Shown piece by piece: positions 492-18,896 of a DNA stretch of 33,838 bases; position 1 is the first letter of the stretch; each line of letters begins with the position of its first letter. The stretch is from contig JAMOBD010000060.1 in the NCBI GenBank assembly GCA_039908345.1, positions 1 to 33,838 on the forward strand. The letters run 5' to 3'. Source of the stretch: Magnetospirillum sp. WYHS-4. Its GTDB lineage: Bacteria; Pseudomonadota; Alphaproteobacteria; Rhodospirillales; GLO-3. Both the position numbers and the translations under genes were made by a program. The notes under the pieces were generated by a model. The model made no database searches, was not told the DNA's origin, and worked only from the letters and a program-made list of their open reading frames with translations.

Positions 492-578
492 TGGTGCCCG
501 CTGCCGGACTCGAACCGGCACGCCCTTGCGGACTACGGATTTTAAGTCCGTTGCGTCTACCAATTCCGCCAAGCGGGC
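492..578 (-). tRNA. tRNA-Leu (anticodon UAA)
   Basis: The minus strand folds as a class II tRNA. The 7-bp acceptor stem pairs GCCCGCU with AGCGGGC, the discriminator is A and the CCA end is encoded at 494-492. The anticodon stem ACGGA/UCCGU encloses the loop CUUAAAA, giving anticodon UAA for Leu UUA codons. A variable arm of leucine type and a T arm with GGUUCGAGUCC are present. The length of 87 nt including CCA fits tRNA-Leu. It lies downstream of the small exported protein gene on the same strand, beyond that gene's terminator. Confidence 0.95.
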
Positions 579-10970: not shown

Positions 10971-12047
<1,077 letters not shown>

Positions 12048-12049
12048 GC

Positions 12050-13246
12050 ATGAACATCCACGAATACCAGGCCAAGCGGCTGCTGGCCGAATTCGGCGTC
12101 GCCGTCCCCAGGGGCGAGGTCGCCTATACCCCCGCCGAGGCGGAAGCCGCCGCCAGGAATCTGGGCGGCCCGGTCTGGGTGGTGAAGTCCCAGATCCACG
12201 CGGGCGGACGCGGCGCCGGCCGCTTCCAGGACGATCCCGGCGGCAAGGGCGGCGTGCGGGTGGTCAAGTCGGTGGACGACGTGGTCGCCAGCGCCAAGGC
12301 CATGCTGGGCCACGTGCTGGTCACCAGGCAGACCGGCCCGGCGGGCAGGGAGGTCAAGCGCCTTTACATCGAGGAAGGCTGCGACATCGCCCGCGAACTG
12401 TACCTGGGCGCCCTGATCGACCGCGCCACCTCCTGCATCACTTTCATGGCCTCCACCGAGGGCGGCATGGAGATCGAGGAGGTGGCCCGCAAGACGCCCG
12501 AGAAGATCGTCAAGGTCGCCATCGACCCGGTGATGGGCATGCAGGCCTTCCATGCCCGCAAGCTGGCCTTCGGCCTGGGGCTGGAAGGCAAGCAGGTGGG
12601 GGCGGCCGTCAAGTTCATGATGGCCATGTACGACGCCTTCACAGGCCTGGACGCCAGCCTGGTGGAGATCAATCCCCTGGTGGTCACCGGGGCGGGCGAG
12701 GTGATCGCCCTGGACGCCAAGATGAACTTCGACGACAACGCGCTGTTCCGTCGCAAGAAGGTGGCCGAGCTGCGCGACGCCGACGAGGAAGACCCGGCCG
12801 AACTGGAAGCCGCCAAGTACGATCTCAACTACATCCGCCTGGACGGCAACATCGGTTGCATGGTCAACGGCGCCGGGCTGGCCATGGCGACCATGGACAT
12901 CATCAAGCTCTACGGCGGCGAGCCGGCCAACTTCCTGGACGTGGGCGGCGGCGCCACCCGCGAGCGGGTGACGGAAGCCTTCAAGATCATCCTCCGCGAT
13001 CCCAAGGTGGAAGGGATTCTCGTCAACATCTTCGGCGGCATCATGCGCTGCGACGTGATCGCCGAAGGCGTGGTGGCCGCGGCCAAGGAGGTGAGCCTCA
13101 ACGTGCCTCTGGTGGTGCGCCTGGAAGGCACCAACGTGGACCTGGGCAAGAGCATCCTGGCCCAGTCGGGCCTGCCGATCCTGTCCGCCGACAATCTTGC
13201 CCAGGCCGCCGAGACGGTGGTCAAGGCCGTGAAGGAGGCCGCATAA
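12050..13246 (+). CDS. sucC: Succinyl-CoA synthetase, beta subunit
   Basis: SucC with SucD converts succinyl-CoA to succinate while making ATP or GTP. The 398-aa protein has the family start [12 protein letters not shown], an N-terminal ATP-grasp domain ([14 protein letters not shown]), LVEINPLVV, and a C-terminal CoA-ligase domain with FLDVGGGA and [16 protein letters not shown]. The length is normal. The start lies 2 bp after mdh, and 1 bp separates its stop from the sucD ATG, so the three genes are co-translated. Confidence 0.98.
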
Positions 13247-13247
13247 C

Positions 13248-14123
13248 ATGGCCGTGCTCGTCGACAAGACCACCAAGGTCATCTGCCAGGGCTTCACCGG
13301 CGCCCAGGGGACCTTCCATTCCGAACAGGCCATCGCCTACGGCACCCGCATGGTGGGCGGCGTGACGCCCGGCAAGGGCGGCACCCGGCACCTGGATCTG
13401 CCGGTGTTCGACACGGTGGCGGACGCGGTCGCCAAGACGGGGGCCAACGCTTCCGTGATCTACGTCCCGCCGCCCTTCGCGGCCGATGCCATCCTGGAAG
13501 CCATCGACGCCGGGGTCGCCTTGGCGGTCTGCATCACCGAAGGCATTCCGGTCCAGGACATGCTGCGGGTGAAGCGGGCGCTCAAGGGGTCCGGCACCCG
13601 CCTGATCGGCCCCAACTGCCCCGGCATCATCACTCCGGGCGAATGCAAGATCGGCATCATGCCGGGCCACATCCACACCCGCGGCAAGGTGGGCATCGTG
13701 TCCCGCTCGGGCACTCTCACCTACGAGGCGGTGGCCCAGACCACGGCGGCCGGGCTGGGGCAGTCGACCTGCATCGGCATCGGCGGCGATCCGATCAACG
13801 GCACAAATTTCGTCGATTGCCTGGACCTGTTCCTGGCCGATCCCGAAACCCAGGCCATCGTGATGATCGGCGAGATCGGCGGCTCGGCCGAGGAGGACGC
13901 GGCCGAATTCCTCAAGCGGTCCAAGGTCAAGAAGCCGACCGTGGGCTTCATCGCCGGCATGACGGCCCCGCCGGGGCGCCGCATGGGCCATGCCGGGGCC
14001 ATCATCTCGGGCGGCAAGGGGACGGCGTCCGACAAGATCGAGGCCATGCGGAGCGCCGGCATCCACGTCGCCGATTCTCCCGCCGCCATCGGCAGTACGA
14101 TGTTGAAAGTCCTGAAGGGCTGA
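13248..14123 (+). CDS. sucD: Succinyl-CoA synthetase, alpha subunit
   Basis: The 291-aa alpha subunit binds CoA and carries the phosphohistidine. Seen are the CoA-binding start ([19 protein letters not shown]), the VTPGKGG loop, the [10 protein letters not shown] segment, and the active-site histidine in [15 protein letters not shown]. The length fits the family. It follows sucC directly. The next gene is not sucA, as in most genomes, but a small hemerythrin-like gene. Confidence 0.98.
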
Positions 14124-14165: not shown

Positions 14166-14579
14166 ATGGCCAAGGTGGAACTGCTGGACACATTCGTCAT
14201 CGGCCATCCCCGCATCGACGCGGACCATCAGAAGCTGATCGATCTGGTCAACCAGCTGGACGATGCCGTGACCAACGGCGAGTTGAAGTCCTGCAAGGTG
14301 CTGTTCGACGACTTCATCGAGGCGGCCCGCGACCACTTCGCCCGCGAGGAACAGGTTCTCAGGGCGGCCGGTTTCCCTCGGCTCACCCAGCACTGCGTCT
14401 ACCACTGGGGCCTGTTGCAGCGGGCCCATTCGGTGCGCCGGATGTGCGGCGACATGACCGACATGGCGGACATCCGCGACTGCTTCGACAGCCTGGTTTC
14501 CTTCATGGTCGACGACGTCATCCTGGGGGACATGGACTTCAAGTCCTTCCTCCAGGAACGCGGTTTGGCACGCCACTGA
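14166..14579 (+). CDS. Bacteriohemerythrin-like protein with one altered iron ligand
   Basis: The 137-aa four-helix protein matches bacteriohemerythrins, which bind O2 at a di-iron centre. Ligands visible are His21 (DADHQKL), His57 and Glu61 (HFAREE), His76 and His80 (HCVYH), and Asp122 (ILGDMDF). The sixth position, normally His in the HIxxxD motif, is Asp117, in DVILGD. The site may therefore still hold metal but with changed chemistry. Most of these proteins are O2 carriers or sensors; here it is a stand-alone domain without signal peptide or membrane helix. It lies between sucD and sucA, 42 bp after sucD, in the same direction, suggesting expression with the TCA genes. A second ATG at 14162 is out of frame. 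Confidence 0.88.
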   Translation: MAKVELLDTFVIGHPRIDADHQKLIDLVNQLDDAVTNGELKSCKVLFDDFIEAARDHFAREEQVLRAAGFPRLTQHCVYHWGLLQRAHSVRRMCGDMTDMADIRDCFDSLVSFMVDDVILGDMDFKSFLQERGLARH

Positions 14580-14610
14580 GCCCCTCTCTTCCATCCTCCA
14601 TTCCAGGGAA

Positions 14611-14632
14611 GGCGGGGACTCGCATCCCCGCC
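14611..14632 (+). promoter_or_regulatory. Hairpin between the hemerythrin gene and sucA
   Basis: GGCGGGGA and TCCCCGCC form a perfect 8-bp stem around CTCGCA, ending 10 bp before the sucA ATG. No T-run follows. It could modulate sucA translation or mark an mRNA processing point. Confidence 0.5.
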
Positions 14633-14642
14633 CACCATCGTC

Positions 14643-17561
14643 ATGGCTGAAACACTGGACAGTTTCCTTTCCGGCACCAACGCCACCTTCATGGCGGAAC
14701 TCTACGCCCGCTACCTGGACGACCCCGGCGCCGTCGATCCGAGTTGGAGTTCCTTCTTCGACGGCCTGCACGACGATGCCCGCGCCCTGCTGGACGACAT
14801 GCAGGGCGCCAGTTGGGCGCCGTCGGACCGGACGGTGATCGGGCGTGCGACGGCGGGCGCTTCGCTTTCCGACCTGGCAGGGGGCACCGCGCCCCTGCAG
14901 CCGGCCGGCGCCGCCGCCCGCGGCATCCGCGACGCGACGCGGGATTCGTTGCGTGCCCTGATGCTGATCCGCAGCTACCGGGTGCGCGGCCACCTGATCG
15001 CCCGCTTCGATCCCTTGGGCCTGGAAGGCAACGCCTACCATCCGGAACTGGACCCGAAGACCTATGGCTTTGCCGAAGCCGACATGGACCGGCCGATCTT
15101 CATCGACCACGTGCTGGGCCTGGAAAGCGCCACCTTGCGCGAGATCATGAAGGTGCTGAAAGGGACCTACTGCGGGTCCATCGGCGTCGAGTTCATGCAT
15201 ATCCAGGACCCGGACGAGAAGGCCTGGATCCAGCGCCGCATCGAGAGCGTGCGCAACCGCACCGAATTCACCCTGAAGGGCAAGCGCGCCATCTACGAAC
15301 GCCTGGTGGAAGCGGAAGGCTTCGAGCAGTTCCTCCACGTCAAGTACGTGGGCACCAAGCGCTTCGGCCTGGACGGCGGCGAATCCCTGATCCCGGCGCT
15401 GGAGCAGATCCTCAAGCGCGGCGGCCAATTGGGCGTCAAGGAGGTGGTGCTGGGCATGCCGCATCGCGGCCGGCTCAACGTGCTGGTCAACGTGATGCAC
15501 AAGCCCTATGCGGCGATGATCTCGGAATTCCAGGGCAATCCGGCGAATCCGGAGGACGTCCAGGGGTCGGGCGACGTCAAGTACCATCTGGGCACTTCGT
15601 CGGATCGGACCTTCGACGGCAACGTGGTCCATCTGTCGCTCACCGCCAATCCGTCCCACCTGGAAGCGGTCGACCCCGTGGTGCTGGGCAAGGTGCGGGC
15701 CAAGCAGACCCAGCGCGGCGACATGGGCCACAAGCAAGTCATGGCCGTGCTTCTGCACGGCGACGCGGCCTTCGCCGGCCAGGGCCTGGTGCCCGAATGT
15801 CTGGGGCTATCGGAACTGAAGGGCTACAGGACCGGCGGCACCATTCACATCATCGTCAACAACCAGATCGGTTTCACCACGGCGCCCAAGTATTCGCGCT
15901 CTTCGCCCTATCCGTCGGACGTGGCCAAGACGATCCAGGCGCCCATCTTCCACGTCAACGGCGACGATCCGGAAGCGGTGGTGCACGTGGCCCGCATCGC
16001 CATGGAATTCCGCCAGGAATTCGGGCGTGACGTGGTCATCGACATGTTCTGCTACCGGCGCCACGGCCACAACGAGGCCGACGAGCCCATGTTCACCAAC
16101 CCGGTGATGTACCGGACCATCGCCAAGCATCCGACCACCTGCCGGATCTACGGCGGCCAACTGGTGGAGGAAGGGGTGCTGACCCGCGAGGAGGCCGACG
16201 GCATCGTGGCCGACTTCCGTGCCCGCATGGACGAAGCCTACGATGCCGGGCGCAGCTACCGTCCCAACAAGGCGGACTGGCTGGAAGGCAAGTGGATGGG
16301 CCTGGTGCAGTTGACCGGCGAGGAGGAACTGCACGAGTTCGAGACCGCCGCCCCCATGGACCTGCTGCGCGAGGTGGGACGGGTGATTTCGGAGGCGCCC
16401 AAGAACTTCGTCCTCAATGCCAAGATCGCACGTCAACTCGAAGCCAAGCGCCAGATGATCGAGACCGGCCACGGCGTCGACTGGGGCACCGCCGAGGCCC
16501 TGGCTTTCGGTACCCTGCTGACGGAAGGCAATCCGGTCCGCCTGTCGGGCCAGGACTGCGGGCGCGGCACCTTTTCCCACCGCCATGCGGTGCTGGTCGA
16601 CCAGGAGAACGAGGAACGCTACATTCCGCTCAACAACATCCGGCCCGGCCAGGCCCATTTCGAAGTCCTGGACAGCCCGCTGTCGGAAGCCTCCGTGCTC
16701 GGCTTCGAGTACGGCTATTCGCTGAGCGACCCGCAGACCCTGGTGTTGTGGGAAGCCCAGTTCGGCGACTTCGCCAACGGCGCCCAGATGATTATCGACC
16801 AGTTCATCTCGTCGGGCGAGTCCAAGTGGCTGCGCCTGTCGGGCTTGGTCATGCTGCTGCCGCACGGCTACGAGGGCCAGGGGCCCGAGCATTCCTCGGC
16901 GCGACCGGAACGCTACCTGCAACTCTGCGCCGAAGACAACATGCAGGTCTGCAACCTGACCACCCCGGCCCAATATTTCCACGCGCTCAGGCGCCAGTTG
17001 CGGCGGAACTTCCGCAAGCCGCTGGTGATCTTCTCGCCCAAGTCCCTGTTGCGCCACAAGCTGGCGGTTTCCGAACTGGGCCTGATGGGGCTGGGCACCG
17101 AATTCCACCGGGTGCTGCCCGAAATGGATCGCTTGGTTCTGGACAAGAACATCAAGCGCGTCGTGCTTTGCTCCGGCAAGGTCTACTACGACCTGCTGGA
17201 GGCGCGCCGGGGCCAGGGCATCAAGGACGTGGCGATCGTGCGCATGGAACAGCTCTATCCCTGGCCGCGCCAAAGCCTCCTGCAGCAGCTCGCCCGCTAT
17301 CCCAACGCGGAAGTGGTCTGGTGCCAGGAGGAGCCCGCCAACATGGGCTATTGGACCTTCGTCTATCCGCGCATCGAGAACATCCTGGACGACCTGGACG
17401 GCAAGGCGCGGCGGCCGGTCTATGCCGGGCGCAAGGCCTCGGCTTCGCCGGCCACCGGCCTGCTGAAGACCCACAAGGTGGAACAGGGGGGCCTGTTGAG
17501 CCAGGCCCTCGAGGCTCCGCTCGAGACCATCCCGCAACCCTTCCGGCGCATCGAGCGCTGA
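14643..17561 (+). CDS. sucA: 2-oxoglutarate dehydrogenase E1 component
   Basis: E1 uses thiamine diphosphate to decarboxylate 2-oxoglutarate and transfer the succinyl group to lipoyl-E2. The 972 aa cover the whole family. Seen are the N-terminal E2-binding helix (NATFMAELYARYLDDP), VRGHLIARFDPLG, the ThDP-region motifs GMPHRGRLNVL and GGTIHIIVNNQIGFTT, CYRRHGHNEADEP, the transketolase-like GRGTFSHRHAVL, LLPHGYEGQGPEHSSARPERYLQ, and the C-terminal CQEEPANMGYW. The sequence appears undamaged throughout. No strong Shine-Dalgarno sequence precedes the start; a hairpin ends 10 bp upstream. sucB begins 18 bp after the stop. Confidence 0.98.
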   Translation: MAETLDSFLSGTNATFMAELYARYLDDPGAVDPSWSSFFDGLHDDARALLDDMQGASWAPSDRTVIGRATAGASLSDLAGGTAPLQPAGAAARGIRDATRDSLRALMLIRSYRVRGHLIARFDPLGLEGNAYHPELDPKTYGFAEADMDRPIFIDHVLGLESATLREIMKVLKGTYCGSIGVEFMHIQDPDEKAWIQRRIESVRNRTEFTLKGKRAIYERLVEAEGFEQFLHVKYVGTKRFGLDGGESLIPALEQILKRGGQLGVKEVVLGMPHRGRLNVLVNVMHKPYAAMISEFQGNPANPEDVQGSGDVKYHLGTSSDRTFDGNVVHLSLTANPSHLEAVDPVVLGKVRAKQTQRGDMGHKQVMAVLLHGDAAFAGQGLVPECLGLSELKGYRTGGTIHIIVNNQIGFTTAPKYSRSSPYPSDVAKTIQAPIFHVNGDDPEAVVHVARIAMEFRQEFGRDVVIDMFCYRRHGHNEADEPMFTNPVMYRTIAKHPTTCRIYGGQLVEEGVLTREEADGIVADFRARMDEAYDAGRSYRPNKADWLEGKWMGLVQLTGEEELHEFETAAPMDLLREVGRVISEAPKNFVLNAKIARQLEAKRQMIETGHGVDWGTAEALAFGTLLTEGNPVRLSGQDCGRGTFSHRHAVLVDQENEERYIPLNNIRPGQAHFEVLDSPLSEASVLGFEYGYSLSDPQTLVLWEAQFGDFANGAQMIIDQFISSGESKWLRLSGLVMLLPHGYEGQGPEHSSARPERYLQLCAEDNMQVCNLTTPAQYFHALRRQLRRNFRKPLVIFSPKSLLRHKLAVSELGLMGLGTEFHRVLPEMDRLVLDKNIKRVVLCSGKVYYDLLEARRGQGIKDVAIVRMEQLYPWPRQSLLQQLARYPNAEVVWCQEEPANMGYWTFVYPRIENILDDLDGKARRPVYAGRKASASPATGLLKTHKVEQGGLLSQALEAPLETIPQPFRRIER

Positions 17562-17579: not shown

Positions 17580-18896
17580 ATGGCGACGGAAATCAAGGTA
17601 CCCTCCCTGGGCGAATCGGTAGCCGAGGCGACCGTGGCGAAGTGGCTGAAGGCGGCGGGCGACGTCATCGCCGCCGACCAGCCCCTGGTCGAGTTGGAAA
17701 CCGACAAGGTGACGGTGGAGGTCAACGCGCCCTGTGCCGGCGTGCTCGCCGAGATCCTGGCTCCGGTCGGGGCCGAAGTGGCGGTGGGGGCCCTGCTGGG
17801 CCGCATCGCCGAAGGGGCCGGCGCCGCCGCTGCCCCGGCGCCGAAGAAGGCCGAGCCTGCCCCGGCCCCCGAGCCGGCGGAGGAGGAACCCCTTTCGCCC
17901 GCGGTGCGCAAGCTGATCGACGAGAACGGCCTGAACCCGTCCGCCATTCCCGCTTCCGGCAAGGACGGCCGCTTGACCAAGGGCGACGTGCTGGCCTATC
18001 TGGAAAAGGCGGCGGCGCCCGCTCCTGCCCCGGCTTCGGCTCCGGTAGTGGTCGCTCCGGCTCCGGCCCAGTATCCGGCCCGGCCGGCCGGCCCGCGCGA
18101 GGAAAAGGTCAAGATGACCCGCCTGCGCCAGCGCATCGCCCAGCGCCTCAAGGAAGCGCAGAACACGGCGGCCATGCTGACCACCTTCAACGAAGCCGAC
18201 ATGACCGCCGTGATGGCGTTGCGCGCCCAGATGCAGGACTCCTTTTCCAAGAAGCACGGCGTCAAGCTGGGCTTCATGTCCTTCTTCGTGAAGGCGGCCG
18301 TGGTGGCCTTGCGCGAATTTCCGGCGGTCAACGCGGAAATCGCGGGCGACGAGATCGTCTACAAGAACCACTACGACATCGGCGTCGCGGTGGGCACCGA
18401 ACAGGGCCTGGTGGTGCCGGTGCTGAAGGACGGCGATGCGCTTTCCTTCGCCGACATCGAGAAGGCCATCGCCGATTTCGGCAAGCGCGCCCGCGACGGC
18501 AAGCTTACCATGGAGGACCTGTCGGGCGGCACCTTCACCATCACCAACGGCGGCATTTACGGCTCCTTGATGTCGACGCCGATCCTCAATCCGCCCCAGT
18601 CGGGCATCCTGGGCATGCACAAGGTTCAGCAGCGGCCGATGGTGATGCCCGACGGCAGCATCCATGCCCGCCCGATGATGTACCTGGCGCTTTCTTACGA
18701 CCACCGTATCGTGGACGGGCGCGAGGCGGTCTCCTTCCTGGTGCGGGTCAAGGAATGCATCGAAAACCCCCAGCGCATCATGCTGGATGCGTGGGCGGCG
18801 GGCCGGGCGGCTATGTGGCGGCCATCAAGGCGGCGCAGAAGGGACTCAAGGTGGCCTGCGTGGAAAAGCGCGGCGCCCTGGGCGGTACCTGCCTGA
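17580..18896 (+). CDS. sucB: Dihydrolipoyl succinyltransferase (E2), reading out of frame into lpd
   Basis: The E2 core transfers succinyl from lipoate to CoA. The lipoyl domain has its lysine at 43 (ETDKVTVE), followed by an Ala/Pro linker, the E3/E1-binding domain ([18 protein letters not shown]), a second linker, and the catalytic domain with [13 protein letters not shown]. The normal end is reached at about residue 404 (QRIMLDA, 18791). Instead of a stop codon, the frame runs on for 34 unrelated residues rich in Arg and Trp into the lpd sequence in the wrong frame and stops at 18896. The gene has therefore lost its own stop by a deletion at the lpd junction, or the assembly is wrong here. 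The catalytic part itself looks intact. Confidence 0.9.

Follow-up and report, generated by a model that had tools for sequence, protein, structure and literature searches.

The window analysed here, a contiguous stretch of 33,838 nucleotides from Magnetospirillum sp. WYHS-4, carries a hemerythrin-like gene between sucD and sucA, within a run of co-directional tricarboxylic acid (TCA) cycle genes in the order mdh-sucC-sucD-[hemerythrin]-sucA-sucB, separated by gaps of 2, 1, 42, 63, and 18 nt (Table 1). The original prediction had placed such a gene in the TCA operon, in the same direction as its neighbors and with short gaps, and both the gene and its arrangement were borne out. The 137-aa product scored above the cut-offs of the Pfam family Hemerythrin PF01814 (37 bits, cut-off 25.3) and of the NCBIfam hemerythrin domain TIGR02481 (68.8, cut-off 51.75). 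A purine-rich stretch precedes the ATG of the open reading frame, and our pattern search found neither a sigma-70 nor a terminator pattern at either junction of the gene. Because the co-directional gaps are short and the junctions hold no promoter or terminator pattern, the hemerythrin gene is probably co-transcribed with the suc genes, as far as can be judged from the DNA sequence. The GC and GC3 contents of the gene (0.62 and 0.89) are close to those of its neighbors (0.66-0.68 and 0.87-0.93), and the genome contains one match each for sucD and sucA, which makes an assembly chimera unlikely. Elsewhere in the window, a tRNA gene was recognized on the minus strand.

Table 1. Positions of the genes and features in the window.
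Feature	Positions	Strand	Description
tRNA gene	495-578	-	Rfam RF00005, 63 bits
mdh	11085-12047	+	malate dehydrogenase; start of the co-directional run
sucC	12050-13246	+	succinyl-CoA ligase, beta subunit
sucD	13248-14123	+	succinyl-CoA ligase, alpha subunit; 42 nt 5' of the hemerythrin gene
Hemerythrin-fold gene	14166-14579	+	ORF from ATG to TGA, 137 aa, single domain
Hairpin	14611-14632	+	perfect 8-bp stem that immediately follows a purine tract, with 10 nt left to the sucA start
sucA	14643-17561	+	2-oxoglutarate dehydrogenase E1; 63 nt 3' of the hemerythrin gene
sucB	17580-18896	+	dihydrolipoyl succinyltransferase E2

The gap between the hemerythrin gene and sucA contains a perfect hairpin. 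Among sucA leaders from 20 further genomes of the order, many share this layout but not the sequence of the stem, and in seven leaders the hairpin was matched by at most 0.5% of shuffled sequences. The layout, seen at 14600-14643 in the window and at seven other loci, comprises a purine Shine-Dalgarno-like tract, a hairpin of 7-10 bp, and 0-12 nt to the sucA start, and the hairpin sequence differs between families of the order. This looks like a conserved leader with a hairpin between the ribosome-binding tract and the start codon, and the hairpin appears to belong to sucA as a conserved feature independent of the hemerythrin gene. We rejected a terminator as there is no T run, and a mobile repeat as the hairpin is unique in the genome. 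No Rfam match at gathering level was found at the junction or the sucA leader in the window; a match to BjrC80 at the junction (20.4 bits against a threshold of 80) was treated as chance.

The AlphaFold model of the 137-aa protein (pLDDT 88) is a four-helix bundle with a predicted fold like that of solved hemerythrins. The solved structures closest to the model were DcrH-Hr (2avk; Z 20.0, rmsd 1.6, 133 residues aligned) and DcrH-Hr mutants. Thus, the proposed identity as a single-domain bacteriohemerythrin was right about the single domain and the hemerythrin fold but did not hold for the class: the protein scored 61.2 bits against NCBIfam NF033749 (bacteriohemerythrin), under the cut-off of 84, and the canonical ligand set of five His, one Glu, and one Asp is replaced by one in which the helix-D His has become Asp (HHEHHDD instead of the usual HHEHHHD). 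By predicted ligands and profile score alike, the protein falls outside the canonical class of O2-binding bacteriohemerythrins. Reversible O2 binding cannot be assumed for it because its canonical His ligands number four instead of five.

The predicted iron-ligand positions are H21, H57, E61, H76, H80, D117, and D122. D117, standing in place of the usual helix-D His (a change that the original prediction does not mention), aligns with His118 of DcrH-Hr in the last helix, one residue before the much-studied I119. In an alignment of 27 homologues, D18, H21, H57, E61, E62, H76, H80, D117, and D122 were among the invariant residues. Identity between the window's protein and its relatives does not exceed 48%, yet all ligand positions and the residues typical of its subfamily are intact, which argues that the protein is under selection. 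A profile was used to read the ligand positions of 129 hemerythrin domains, sampled across the order and the class and including copies from the window's own genome. Asp occupied the helix-D position in 74 domains and His did so in 54, one row being incomplete, and the remaining ligand positions were kept in nearly all domains of both kinds, hereafter Asp117 and His117. Within the window's genome, which has 25 hemerythrin matches, the gene studied here was the single Asp117 case among the 24 domains readable through the helix-D site; the other 23 have His.

On the tree, a single D/H change suffices to separate the two kinds (SH-aLRT 93), and the Asp117 proteins form one alphaproteobacterial branch. 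After removal of columns 112-124, one change was still enough, but support for the Asp117 branch dropped from 93 to 62. Branch support close to the window's protein is weak. The two kinds also differ outside the ligand set. Cys43 occurs in 60/74 Asp117 domains and does not figure among the residues common in the His117 kind, whereas Trp113, found in 48 of the 54 His117 domains, is mostly Phe or Leu in the Asp117 kind, with Phe in the branch consensus. The window's protein has Asp at helix D, retains the other six ligands, and groups with this branch on the tree, the features by which we define the Asp117 subfamily here. It is most likely a cytoplasmic member of a distinct alphaproteobacterial hemerythrin subfamily marked by the change from His to Asp in helix D. 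In a phylum-wide search, all 29 loci examined had His117; to date, Alphaproteobacteria alone have yielded members of the branch, a scope set by a single sample, and its spread could be wider.

A pseudogene or a site drifting into decay was rejected, given that D117 is fixed throughout the branch, with the other ligands retained. Six ligands kept and the seventh fixed as Asp point to a working metal site of altered chemistry, in which four His and three carboxylates would bind two irons. The window's protein shares the four-helix fold and six of the seven iron-ligand positions with the bacteriohemerythrins McHr and DcrH-Hr of NF033749; differences from them are the helix-D Asp, the Phe that the branch consensus has for Trp113, and the added Cys43. 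Changes of ligands are themselves long known in hemerythrins, so D117 alone is no proof of a new function. According to the available parts of two surveys, both covering natural changes in bacterial hemerythrins, ligands were altered in 58 of 327 sequences, mostly in helix C, with helix D accounting for 6 of the 71 changes and Glu or Asp as the new residue in 7 (PMC2556348), and variation across 106 single-domain sequences, including alphaproteobacterial ones, was noted as uncharacterized (PMC4919030). The substitutions reported there are mixed, and those parts describe neither an Asp117 branch nor a linkage to transporters (PMC2556348; PMC4919030). Neither the Asp117 branch nor a ferric-transport linkage was found in the open-access literature searched.

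The original prediction had proposed checking whether the position of the gene is conserved in related genomes, and counted absence from all relatives as one half of a refutation; this half came true for the relatives sampled. We located sucD and sucA separately in 150 genomes of the order; in 131 pairs both genes share contig and strand, and the median distance between them is 95 bases. The gap reached at least 300 bases in 11 of the 131; two of these exceeded 16 kb, and sucA is there not beside sucD. One of the other nine is the gap in the window, and the remaining eight, read by tblastn, contained no hemerythrin. A hemerythrin gene therefore lies between sucD and sucA in 1/131 pairs, in the window's genome only. 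The closest relative compared, from another genus of the same family, has 2.9 kb between the two genes, occupied (locus L067, 7567-10163, minus strand) by a 653-aa PAS-HisKA-HATPase sensor histidine kinase and a protein of 212 aa that has no Pfam match. Elsewhere in the order, the junction holds a cupin, a CCDC90-like, or a PagL-like gene. The junction thus takes in unrelated genes occasionally. No suc genes were found beside the best homologues in the order (29 loci), beside those found in the class, or beside any of the Asp117 homologues examined, and a conserved suc linkage was rejected. The insertion into the suc operon itself looks like a curiosity of one genome.

These extra genes in several lineages would fit a hitchhiker: a gene with an unrelated function, inserted at a junction that tolerates newcomers and expressed by read-through alone. 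We consider this possible but rather unlikely, because the ligand and subfamily residues preserved at 48% identity or less indicate selection on the protein itself. It concerns the location only and is compatible with a function in iron handling.

Another explanation, put forward in the original prediction, is that an O2- or NO-binding hemerythrin is made together with the 2-oxoglutarate dehydrogenase complex and protects it or tunes it to oxygen. The shared direction, the short gaps, and the junctions free of promoter or terminator patterns agree with joint production. SucAB has no Fe-S cluster, which counts against a need for such protection. A precedent is Campylobacter jejuni, whose single-domain hemerythrins HerA and HerB have a TCA-related role: they protect the Fe-S enzymes Por and Oor, the latter a TCA-cycle enzyme that HerA shields from oxygen (PMC4257069). 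The neighbor of the window's gene, however, is SucA/SucB, an enzyme type called oxygen-stable in the same work, and HerA keeps all its His ligands and is transcribed apart from the downstream iscS-nifU (PMC4257069). The site without the fifth His, the occurrence at this junction in one pair of 131, the other genes found there in the sister genus, and relatives that adjoin iron transporters instead of TCA genes leave this proposal mostly unsupported, and we regard it as improbable.

The neighborhoods of the Asp117 relatives suggested a different role. In one Asp117 clade, the hemerythrin is the fourth gene after a binding protein, a permease, and an ATPase, and this FbpABC-type ferric-uptake operon occurs across several families of the order as well as in two from the wider class. 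In 18/19 cases the Asp117 gene lies 3' of an FbpB-type gene on the same strand. The best NCBIfam matches of the ABC components of the four-gene operon were aminoethylphosphonate or polyamine transporters, all far under cut-off; the binding protein of such an operon matched solved ferric-ion-binding FbpA/FutA proteins with E values down to 1e-104, which decides for ferric iron over the former substrates. In a second Asp117 clade, confined to one family, the gene directly follows a FetA-FetB-like pair (8 loci), resembling the FetAB-type iron exporter. The UPF0014 permease of this pair scored 272 bits against a cut-off of 22.6, and FetB was its sole NCBIfam match, albeit under the equivalog cut-off. 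A protein of about 91-102 aa with a signal-like start is encoded between FetB and the Asp117 gene at five loci, one copy having a weak match to DUF3811.

Outside the window's genome, FbpA, FbpB, or FetB occurred in the fetched flanks of 27/73 Asp117 loci and 0/31 His117 loci (Fisher p 1.5e-5, with kinship ignored and flank lengths varying among loci). Either linkage occurs within a single clade on the tree, and the 27 cases thus amount to about two evolutionary events. The window's genome was left out of this count because it lacks these transporters altogether: the same searches found no FbpA or FetB homologue in it, while FbpA is present in 109 of the 150 genomes of the order. Placed among suc genes, the window's gene has no iron transporter next door, and its protein lies outside both transporter-linked clades. 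Its nearest relatives have as neighbors cytochrome b561 and a dihaem cytochrome c, an EAL/GGDEF protein, and others, with no iron transporter among them, and among other Asp117 genes the neighbors include a glycolate oxidase and a methyltransferase. In the open-access text searched, no paper on point described a gene cluster that combines a hemerythrin with FbpA or with ferric uptake.

The fixed D117 and the transporter linkage lead us to propose, with a probability of about one half, that the Asp117 subfamily works in iron handling. Beside iron transporters, the protein would buffer, accept, or sense iron through a diiron site that may be loaded, emptied, or oxidized as cellular Fe(II) and O2 dictate. 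From known chemistry, a carboxylate in place of the terminal His should make the site less fit for reversible O2 binding and bring it nearer to diiron oxidases and iron-sensing hemerythrin domains. The same swap could instead mark a catalytic diiron oxidase or peroxidase, removing H2O2 or oxidizing Fe(II), and a published analogue, as cited in PMC4919030 (its reference 31), is the engineered carboxylate one residue further on in DcrH I119E (PDB 3waq). The transporter linkage fits storage or sensing equally well, and we think catalysis rather improbable. As for the location, the window's gene, the only Asp117 member found in its genome, was most probably inserted into the suc operon at a junction open to foreign genes and may now be expressed along with the TCA genes. 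We infer that this location involves no special link to 2-oxoglutarate dehydrogenase, position alone connecting them.

A function in iron handling has counterparts among other hemerythrin-like proteins. The ligands of FBXL5 are four His and three carboxylates. FBXL5 and BRUTUS both use the hemerythrin fold for iron sensing (PMC12022348). They are, however, eukaryotic and coupled to E3 ubiquitin ligases, with carboxylates at other positions. The RIC/YtfE proteins are larger, with an extra N-terminal domain, and no match to them came up in our searches. They constitute a different class of diiron hemerythrin-like proteins, reported in the accessible portions of two papers to donate iron (PMC9268430; PMC8117158). 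One could go further and see in the Asp117 hemerythrins unrecognized bacterial iron sensors or chaperones, a prokaryotic counterpart of FBXL5 and BRUTUS working with FbpABC import and FetAB export, which in the window would be wired into the TCA operon and couple iron status with 2-oxoglutarate dehydrogenase; we hold this to be quite unlikely.

Hemerythrins abound in bacteria; the usual annotation is that of an oxygen carrier, and few have a known function. The Asp117 branch, coherent, fixed in its ligand change, and repeatedly linked to iron transporters, offers a testable functional class, and if its proposed role in iron handling is true, many hemerythrin annotations would stand for iron-handling proteins. 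Ligand positions also vary beyond the Asp117/His117 split. Two Asp117 homologues (L109 and L110) have Arg for the helix-A His (RHEHHDD), further from the canonical site, and in the window's own genome, locus L190 (3899-5468, plus strand) encodes four hemerythrin-like domains in tandem, one of which has lost most of its ligands (HWLARH-).
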